Under the pieces are notes generated by a model, which did not search any database, was not told where the DNA came from, and worked only from the letters and a program-made list of their open reading frames with translations. The translations under genes were made by a program, and so were the position numbers. DNA of 64,000 nt, taken from Actibacterium lipolyticum. GTDB lineage: Bacteria > Pseudomonadota > Alphaproteobacteria > Rhodobacterales > Rhodobacteraceae. The DNA lies in assembly GCF_900184935.1 (NCBI RefSeq), contig NZ_FXYE01000001.1, forward strand, positions 124,001-188,000, read 5' to 3'. Numbering within the stretch: the stretch's first letter is position 1; every line of letters starts with the position of its first letter. Positions 3,780-5,697 of the stretch are shown here, piece after piece.

Positions 3780-4301
3780 ATGACAATTCGACCGATCCTG
3801 ATACACCCCGACCCGCGCCTGAAAAAGGCAGCAGAGCCCGTAGGCGACATCACTGATGAGATGCGCGCGCTGGCCGATGACATGCTGGAAACCATGTATG
3901 ACGCGCCGGGCATCGGCCTTGCCGCGCCGCAGATTGGCGTGATGCTGCAGCTTCTGGTCATGGATTGCGTCAAGGAAGAGGGCGAAGCGCACCGCCCGAT
4001 GGCCATGTTCAACCCGGAAATCATCTGGGCGTCTGACGAAATGAGCACCTACGAAGAGGGCTGCCTTTCCATCCCCGATCAATACGCAGAGGTGGATCGC
4101 CCCGCGGAAGTTGACGTGCGTTGGACCGACGTCAACGGCGAGGTCCAGGAAGAGCGGTTCAAAGACCTGTGGGCGACCTGCGTCCAGCACGAGATTGACC
4201 ACCTGAACGGCAAGCTGTTCATCGATTATCTGAAGCCGCTAAAGCGCCAGATGATCACGCGGAAAATGCAAAAGCTGAAACGCGAAAGGGCGCGGGCGTG
4301 A
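3780..4301 (+). CDS. def: Peptide deformylase (catalytically intact copy)
   Basis: Removes the N-formyl group from nascent proteins. Translation from the ATG at 3780 gives 173 aa beginning MTIRPILIHPDPRL, as usual for the family; an upstream in-frame start would only add 12 untypical residues. All three motifs are present: GIGLAAPQIG (44-53), EGCLS with the metal ligand Cys95, and HEIDH with His137, the catalytic Glu138 and His141. The C-terminal tail is rich in Lys and Arg. The stop overlaps the GTG start of a second deformylase-like gene, and fmt follows, so def-(def-like)-fmt form one operon. Confidence 0.95.
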   Translation: MTIRPILIHPDPRLKKAAEPVGDITDEMRALADDMLETMYDAPGIGLAAPQIGVMLQLLVMDCVKEEGEAHRPMAMFNPEIIWASDEMSTYEEGCLSIPDQYAEVDRPAEVDVRWTDVNGEVQEERFKDLWATCVQHEIDHLNGKLFIDYLKPLKRQMITRKMQKLKRERARA

Positions 4302-4798
4302 CGACCCGTCCTTTTGTCGCGTATCCCGACAAGCGCCTGAAAACGGCCGCCGCCCCAGTGGATGAAATCACTGACGAGGTTCGCGGCATTTGGAACGATA
4401 TGGTTGAAACCATGGATGCGATGCCCGGCTACGGCCTTGGTGCGCCGCAGATTGGTGTGATGCTGCGCCTTGCCGTTGTGGATTGTTCCGATGAACGTGG
4501 GCAGGCTGTGAAAATGGCCAATCCCGAAATCCTTCATGCCTCTGCTCAGATGCGCGAACACGAAGAGGCAAGCCCGAACCTGCCCGGTGTTTCGGCTGTG
4601 GTGGAACGCCCCCGCGCTGTGACGGTTCGTTTCTTGAACGAACAGGGAGAGGTTGAGGAACGTGATTTCGTAAGTCTGTGGGCCACCTCTGTTCAGCACC
4701 AGATCGATCATCTGAATGGCAAAATGTATTTCGATAACCTGTCAAAGCTAAAGCGCGACCGGTTGCTAAAGCGCGCCGCCAAGTTAGGGGGCCGCTGA
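4298..4798 (+). CDS. Peptide deformylase-like pseudoenzyme
   Basis: A 166-aa protein starting at GTG in a GTGA overlap with def. It is clearly a deformylase paralogue: motif 1 reads [10 protein letters not shown] (44-53), and the residues around motif 3 ([12 protein letters not shown]) keep both metal-ligand histidines, His134 and His138. Two key positions are lost: the metal-ligand Cys of motif 2 is Ser (EEASPNLP, Ser92), and the catalytic Glu is Gln135. From known deformylase chemistry it should not bind metal normally or deformylate. Its place between def and fmt with overlaps at both ends suggests coordinated expression and a role in nascent-chain processing or regulation, which is inference. 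Confidence 0.88.
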
Positions 4799-5697
4799 TG
4801 CGTATCGTCTTTATGGGAACGCCAGAGTTTTCGGTGCCCGTTCTGGACGCGCTGGTTGATGCTGGTCATGACATCGCATGTGTCTATTGCCAGCCCCCCC
4901 GCCCGGCGGGCCGTGGCAAGAAAGAGCGCCCCAGCCCAGTTCAAGCCCGCGCCGAGGCGCTGGGCCTGCCTGTGCGTTATCCCGTTAAGCTGCGTGATGC
5001 AGAGGCGCAGGCCGAATTCGCTGCGCTGAACGCCGATGTCGCGGTGGTGGTGGCCTATGGCCTGATCCTGCCGCAACCCGTGCTGGACGCCCCGAAACAC
5101 GGCTGCCTGAACATCCACGCATCGCTTTTGCCGCGGTGGCGGGGTGCGGCACCTATTCACCGGGCGATTATGGCGGGCGATGCGGAAACCGGCGTCTGCA
5201 TCATGCAGATGGAAGCCGGGCTGGATACCGGCCCTGTGTTGCTGCGCGAAGCGACACCTATTGGCGCCGAGGAAACGACCGCCGTGCTCCATGATCGGCT
5301 TTCGGATATGGGCGCGCGTCTGATCGTAACGGCGCTGGGTCAATTGGACGAACTGGAGCCGACCTCGCAGCCCGACGATGGCGTCACCTATGCCGAAAAG
5401 ATAGACAAGGCCGAGGCGCGCATCGACTGGGCGGAACCGGCAACTGTGGTTGATCGGAAAATTCGCGGCTTGTCTCCGTTCCCGGGCGCATGGTGCGAGG
5501 TGGGCGGAGAGCGTGTGAAACTGCTCGCTTCGCGTATCGGTGCAGGAAGCGGCGCGCCGGGGCAGGTTCTGAACGGGCTAACGATTGCCTGTGGCGAAGG
5601 TGCGGTTGAGGTGCTTAAGGCGCAGCGGCAGGGCAAGCGCGCGATGGATGCCGAAGAGTTTTTGCGCGGCACCGAATTGCCCGACGTTCTAAGCTGA
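4798..5697 (+). CDS. fmt: Methionyl-tRNA formyltransferase
   Basis: Transfers formyl from 10-formyl-THF to initiator Met-tRNA. The 299-aa protein has the N-terminal formyltransferase domain with [16 protein letters not shown] (105-120, catalytic Asn105 and His107) and GLDTGP with Asp143, and the C-terminal Fmt domain from about residue 200 ([21 protein letters not shown]). The ATG overlaps the TGA of the upstream deformylase-like gene by one base (TGATG). The operon therefore pairs formylation and deformylation of the initiator residue. Length is normal. Confidence 0.96.

Follow-up and report, generated by a model that had tools for sequence, protein, structure and literature searches.

The window, by which we mean the whole stretch of 64,000 nucleotides of Actibacterium lipolyticum DNA that was analysed, contains a canonical peptide deformylase gene (def1), a deformylase paralogue without the catalytic Cys and Glu (def2) and fmt, one after the other on the same strand (Table 1).

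Table 1. Genes and features of the def1-def2-fmt locus, in positions of the window
Feature	Position	Strand	Remarks
def1, canonical peptide deformylase	3780..4301	+	motifs GIGLAAPQ / EGCLS / QHEIDH, basic C-terminal tail
def2, deformylase paralogue without Cys/Glu	4298..4798	+	166 aa, GTG start
fmt, methionyl-tRNA formyltransferase	4798..5697	+	
def2 motif II, Ser92-Pro93-Asn94	4571..4579	+	Cys90-Leu91-Ser92 in E. coli deformylase
def2 motif III, Ser131-Val-Gln-His134-Gln135-Ile-Asp-His138	4688..4711	+	Cys129 to Ser, Glu133 to Gln, His pair kept
def2 C-terminal helix, residues 150-164	4745..4789	+	predicted, AlphaFold model

The start of def2 (GTG, 4298-4300) lies across the stop codon of def1 (4299-4301), giving an overlap of 4 bases (GTGA), and its own TGA (4796-4798) shares 1 base with the ATG of fmt, which starts at 4798. 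The product of def2 matched PF01327 with 139.1 bits (cut-off 22.8), so the preliminary description of this DNA was right to place a paralogue with the deformylase fold between def and fmt, overlapping both. Def2 and the Def1 of its own genome are approximately 50% identical (51-53%). Only these two proteins in the genome matched PF01327, therefore Def1 is the only deformylase with canonical motifs that was found in it.

Alignment of Def2 with Def1 of the window confirmed the residues that had been noted before, namely Ser for the metal-ligand Cys at 92 and Gln for the catalytic Glu at 135, with His134 and His138 kept. Three further replacements came to light, with Pro for Leu at 93, Asn for Ser at 94 and Ser for Cys at 131. 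Motif II reads EEASPNLPG in Def2 and EEGCLSIPD in Def1, and motif III, TCVQHEIDHL in Def1, becomes HQIDH after Ser131 in Def2. Motif I of Def2, GYGLGAPQ, is largely as usual, with Gly replacing the first Ala. The signatures of active deformylases, EGCLS with the metal-ligand Cys and HExxH with the catalytic Glu, are therefore replaced in the window by EASPN and HQIDH.

To see how far these changes extend, deformylase matches above 60 bits were classed by their best match to Def1 or Def2. Nearest to Def2 were 151 sequences with Ser and Gln (150 distinct ones after one repeat genome was removed) and one frameshifted copy in which the Ser was kept; Cys or Glu was found in none of the matches nearest Def2. 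The 150 distinct intact orthologues comprise 21 from a first family sample, 80 best-scoring loci, 1 from a profile search of the order, 14 of the weakest scorers that have Def2, 4 from a search of the class and 30 added genomes. As the 80 loci are the best 80 of at least 573 confirmed candidates they are a biased set, and the 30 genomes and 14 weak scorers were hand-picked to balance it. Rows from repeat genomes (L142 and L143), deformylase stretches shorter than 140 aa and fmt stretches shorter than 250 aa were dropped. The preliminary description had asked whether the Ser/Gln pair is conserved in Rhodobacterales homologues, and it is, in 150/150, which shows that it did not arise by chance in this one genome. 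Outside the family (Rhodobacteraceae), 24/24 deformylases carry Cys and Glu, as do 245/248 family matches nearest Def1, a tally made without selection for these residues, which takes in two repeat genomes and a third paralogue, Def3. The three exceptions are L088, a fragment cut off by a contig edge, and two Def3 sequences, described below.

In the numbering of mature E. coli deformylase (reference sequence identical to PDB 3k6l), Cys90 to Ser, Leu91 to Pro, Cys129 to Ser and Glu133 to Gln each occur at a frequency of 1.00 among the 150 Def2, and Ser92 to Asn at 0.93. Gly43, Gly45, Gln50, Glu88, His132, Asp135 and His136 are each kept at 1.00. In E. coli deformylase structures the formyl oxygen is held by two groups, one of them the Leu91 backbone NH, and as proline has no backbone NH, the change at 91 suggests that Def2 would not deformylate. 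A docked inhibitor has been described in contact with the Leu91 backbone and Gln50 (PMC4964514), and the metal is stated to be bound by the Cys of motif II and both His of motif III (PMC5591237). Def2 residues 32, 42, 59 and 74 are nearly invariant (Val31 to Trp 1.00, Glu41 to Met 1.00, Ile58 to Ala 0.98 and Ile73 to Ala 0.99, in E. coli numbering); the Trp for Val together with Ala for Ile at two sites looks like a coordinated repacking of the core under the pocket.

The AlphaFold model of Def2 (pLDDT 94.9, pTM 0.90, from an alignment of 75 rows of Def1, Def2 and Def3) has the predicted fold of a deformylase. It was superimposed on the E. coli iron deformylase 1xen with Z 26.7 and rmsd 1.5 over 164 aligned residues and on 5j46 with Z 26.9, and deformylases were also matched over the whole length by Foldseek. 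The closest solved chain by sequence, 5j46, is 42% identical in the structural alignment, so no solved Def2 structure was found. Six NCBIfam models match Def2, TIGR00079 above its curated cut-off, and because all six are named peptide deformylase, automatic annotation will probably label Def2 as an active enzyme.

A profile built from 18 Def2 sequences matched 378/390 Rhodobacterales genomes at the counting threshold of 1e-65 (a listing counted by eye), all 378 in fact with a best E of 3e-69 or better; the residues above were read in the 150 orthologues. The other 12 genomes comprise 8 with a best match between 1e-50 and 1e-55 and 4 without a match at 1e-50, and their loci were def1-fmt without def2 in nine, def1-def3-fmt in two and a frameshifted def2 in one. 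As 11/390 genomes lack def2 and one has a frameshifted copy, the gene is not required in every genome. The frameshifted copy (L130, genome G295) is whole in the other five examined genomes of the genus, and could be a sequencing error or a recent loss. Within the first sample Def2 was present in 21/25 family genomes; two of the others have Def1 only (G015 and G018), and two genomes that are 82% and 91% complete (G009 and G020, respectively) gave no match at all.

Beyond the family, none of 380 Alphaproteobacteria genomes scored better than canonical deformylases do (385 were searched, 5 of them from the family). The best E there was 1.4e-55, poorer than the 1.8e-59 that the canonical Def1 of the window itself scores on the Def2 profile, and the 15 non-family loci of the class that were fetched were all canonical. 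A DNA pattern encoding QHQxDH, searched for across the class, was not used, being too unspecific (102/385 genomes). An origin from phages or plasmids was rejected: the best 80 of 298 viral relatives are 28-38% identical and all 80 carry Cys and Glu, and, apart from a 1.58-Mb plasmid record of Pseudorhodobacter turbinis (E 1e-30), a search of viral contigs and plasmids found no Def2 on mobile DNA.

The gene order def1-(def3)-def2-fmt holds in 150/150 Def2 loci as far as each locus reaches: 73 have all four genes, 71 are def1-def2-fmt, 5 end at def2 and 1 starts at def3, which puts def3 in 79/150 clusters. If gene starts are estimated from the edges of the profile matches, the median distance from the preceding gene to def2 is -4 bases, with negative values in 124/150, and that from def2 to fmt is 3.5 bases (142 loci). 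In a FastTree of 415 sequences, which took in no type 3 deformylase, Def2 forms one clade (support 1.0) on a branch of 0.66. It is joined to the family Def1 and Def3 clade (0.795) at a node with a support of 0.7, and Def3 is one clade (0.995) inside Def1. Judged from these sequences, Def2 is an ancient, family-wide paralogue of single origin.

The median dN/dS was 0.24 for def1, 0.31 for def2 and 0.24 for fmt (4416 pairs), and 0.45 for def3 (1252 pairs); these are Nei-Gojobori values for high-GC genes from non-independent pairs with partly saturated dS, the pairs being admitted by Def2 dS and the Def1 and Def3 sets chosen for having Cys and Glu. In the five pairs for which Def2 dS was lowest, the ratios were 0.05, 0.07, 0.05, 0.28 and 0.03 for def2 against 0.06, 0.08, 0.07, 0.19 and 0.06 for def1, lower for def2 in four and higher in the fourth listed. 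Among the 40 pairs listed, several show a much higher ratio for Def2, reaching 0.90 against 0.27 for def1, partly from sorting by low Def2 dS. Thus def2 is under purifying selection, weaker than on def1 and fmt and stronger than on def3. The pocket core has an entropy of 0.06 bits in Def2 (0.00 in Def1, 146 loci; 0.22 in Def3, 75 loci), against 1.06 bits outside the pocket of Def2 (146 loci); in the wider pocket Def2 is looser than Def1 (0.50 vs 0.20). Both new serines use both codon families (Ser92, AGY 112 and TCN 38; Ser131, TCN 97 and AGY 53; n=150), which suggests that lineages switched codon family and either stayed at or returned to serine.

It had been said beforehand that homologues with the canonical Cys and Glu would make def2 a decaying copy. 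Such homologues number 0/150, and the idea of a decaying duplicate that persists by chance or through operon polarity is barely credible and was rejected. One frameshifted copy and the 11 absences would fit it, but the same substitutions in every orthologue, dN/dS well below 1 and the switching of serine codons do not. With its catalytic residues lost and purifying selection acting on it, Def2 can be classed as a putative pseudoenzyme. The earlier pseudoenzyme reading is well supported by the sequences; the part of it that stands firmly is the fixed loss of Cys and Glu in a gene kept by selection, while its inactivity is deduced from the residues.

Another explanation for a pocket kept in this way is that Def2 is an altered enzyme, with a Ser/His/His site that holds another metal or hydrolyses another N-terminal group, acting on an unusual substrate or during oxidative stress. 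The invariance of both His, Gln50 and Glu88, in a nearly invariant pocket core, would agree with this, as would the stress-specific metals that have been proposed for type 3 deformylases (PMC12690207). Such a site would be oxidation-proof, as both pocket cysteines are replaced. However, the general base Glu133, the thiolate ligand and Leu91 are changed jointly, with no reversion in 150 sequences, and we regard an altered enzyme as unlikely. A very unlikely use of the pocket is that of a decoy, in which natural deformylase inhibitors would be bound by Def2 and Def1 spared. Actinonin is a chelator of the deformylase metal, which Def2 may not bind; furthermore, Arg97 is already replaced by Tyr or Phe in Def1 of the family (160/160), and a decoy leaves the near-universal vertical retention of def2 unexplained. 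In its favour, natural inhibitors exist and accessory deformylases can confer tolerance to actinonin (PMC12690207).

The C-terminal helix of deformylase binds L22 and competes with methionine aminopeptidase (MAP) (PMC8712518), and the ribosome contacts of the E. coli enzyme have been given as L149, K150, R153 and K157 to uL22 and K160 and R163 to 23S rRNA (PMC12690207). Positions 150, 157 and 160 are all basic in Def1 (160/160) and Def2 (150/150) and in 0/80 Def3, where they are singly basic in 5, 5 and 8 of 80, respectively, and 62/80 have none of the three. Position 163 is basic in 160/160 Def1, 53/150 Def2 and 2/80 Def3, and position 153 in 0/160, 12/150 and 7/80; the ribosome contact of Def2 may be weaker because of the low counts at these two positions. 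Def2 of the window has Lys or Arg at 150, 153, 157 and 160 and Gly at 163. The mean tail after His136 is 32.8 residues in Def1, 27.5 in Def2 and 24.1 in Def3, with a net charge of +7.9, +6.6 and -0.7, respectively. These counts come from sequences extended to the stop codon, as trimming to the matched stretch had cut 67/80 Def3 tails; the counts from trimmed sequences agree, except at position 163 (51 Def2 and 1 Def3).

Def2 thus combines the contact residues with the helix predicted in its model, as in type 1B deformylases. The helix is also still there at 151-160 in the AlphaFold model of one Def3 (L062), so the Def3 tail is stripped of charge and not absent. Def3 was recognised partly by its motif I, GRGLAAPQ, in which Arg takes the Ile44 position. 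It evolves the fastest of the genes compared, and its tail is without net positive charge. Two Def3 sequences have lost catalytic residues, one by Cys to Ala with HE to QV (L082:2507-2992) and one by Glu to Lys (L217, reverse strand, 1040-1495); the 80 other Def3 have Cys and Glu, in a set selected for these residues. At the level of residues, the features are split among the paralogues: Def3 nearly always has Cys and Glu, without the ribosome-contact residues, and Def2 is the reverse.

This complementarity could mean that Def2 is a partner subunit, which complexes with Def1, Def3 or Fmt to stabilise or deliver them and could lend its ribosome tail to Def3. The fixed gene order, the negative gap before def2 and the opposite tail charges of Def3 on one side and Def2 and Def1 on the other would be in line with this. 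However, a strict pair of Def2 and Def3 was rejected, as 71/150 Def2 loci, as well as the genome of the window, show no Def3, and two genomes (G268 and G333) have Def3 without Def2. From the 71 loci it also follows that Def2 must have a role without Def3. In addition, deformylases are generally monomers, and a partner subunit is rather unlikely overall.

The explanation that we favour, though tentatively and at slightly less than an even chance, is that Def2 is a pseudo-deformylase tethered to the ribosome, where it would bind nascent N-termini or gate them. Def2, presumably unable to deformylate, would dock by its C-terminal helix at the uL22 site of Def1 next to the tunnel exit, where it would bind the N-terminal (formyl-)Met without turnover and delay or gate the access of Def1 and MAP. 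Translated together with def1 and fmt, Def2 would stay matched in amount to formylation and deformylation. The deformylase and MAP sites overlap on the E. coli ribosome, and deformylase has a KM approximately 100-fold lower for ribosome complexes than for a model peptide (PMC8712518), so a non-enzyme that bears the tail could matter. The preserved pocket core and the ribosome-contact residues are compatible with the roles put forward in the preliminary description, binding formylated nascent chains or regulating Def. Against the tethered pseudo-deformylase, the pocket core suits an unknown ligand as well as formyl-Met, def2 is under weaker constraint than def1 and fmt and has a wider pocket looser than that of Def1, positions 163 and 153 are less often basic than not, the gene is missing from some genomes, and activity has been reported for some type 3 deformylases whose motifs are changed (PMC12690207). 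A broader form is possible but more doubtful. In it, Def2 would be a non-catalytic reader of formyl-Met at the ribosome exit across the family; Def1 would have both functions, Def3 the chemistry only and Def2 the docking only, and the timing of deformylation and methionine excision would be set by competition between enzyme and pseudoenzyme.

Among known systems, Def2 is like the type 1B deformylase of E. coli in its whole-length fold, most of motif I, both motif III His and the basic C-terminal helix, and differs from it in lacking Cys90, Glu133 and Leu91, with Cys129 and mostly Ser92 changed as well. Type 3 deformylases (Archaea, trypanosomatids, S. aureus and S. pneumoniae) have substitutions in the catalytic motifs, as Def2 has in motifs II and III, and in S. 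aureus and S. pneumoniae they stand beside an active copy (PMC12690207, PMC5591237). They are described as weakly active or inactive, some being inactive, and accessory deformylases as mostly retaining the critical residues (PMC12690207). Compared with type 3, taken here by its description, Def2 is a single clade of one family with one invariant set of changes, locked in an operon and keeping the type 1B tail. Viral deformylases without a ribosome tail (Vp16 PDF) resemble Def3 in having catalytic residues without tail contacts, the opposite of Def2 (PMC5591237). Two deformylases of B. subtilis are also mentioned in a discussion of duplicates (PMC3024229).

The cluster itself is known. Lamberioux et al. 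2025 reported clustered PDF genes in 98.1% of Rhodobacterales species, with three genes in 62.5% of these, which is the same cluster as def1-(def3)-def2-fmt, and called the rationale for the clustering elusive (PMC12690207). Sections 5, 6, 7 and 16 of its main text do not mention an invariant Ser/Gln member or a split between tail and chemistry. Titles and abstracts from our literature searches (for one query the best 25 of 957 matches, none of which contains the word deformylase) include none that describes the Ser/Gln clade of Def2, and no passage on deformylation was found in a R. pomeroyi proteogenomics paper. Within the literature searched, two things appear to be new, namely a cluster member that is invariably crippled and the separation of chemistry from the ribosome tail.

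The proposed role of Def2 offers a testable answer to why the deformylase genes of Rhodobacterales cluster. A pseudoenzyme encoded in the deformylation operon throughout the family would form a control layer on a step that is essential and targeted by antibiotics, and Def2 would point to an unstudied control step in protein synthesis across almost all examined family members. To our knowledge, a control layer of this kind has no counterpart in E. coli.

A separate observation concerns Def1. All 160 family Def1, including that of the window, and 24/24 other alphaproteobacterial Def1 carry Tyr or Phe where the E. coli enzyme has Arg97. In Vibrio, Arg97 to Tyr raises the actinonin MIC (PMC12690207). 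Natural tolerance to actinonin may therefore be common in Alphaproteobacteria, given the Tyr or Phe in these 184 Def1.
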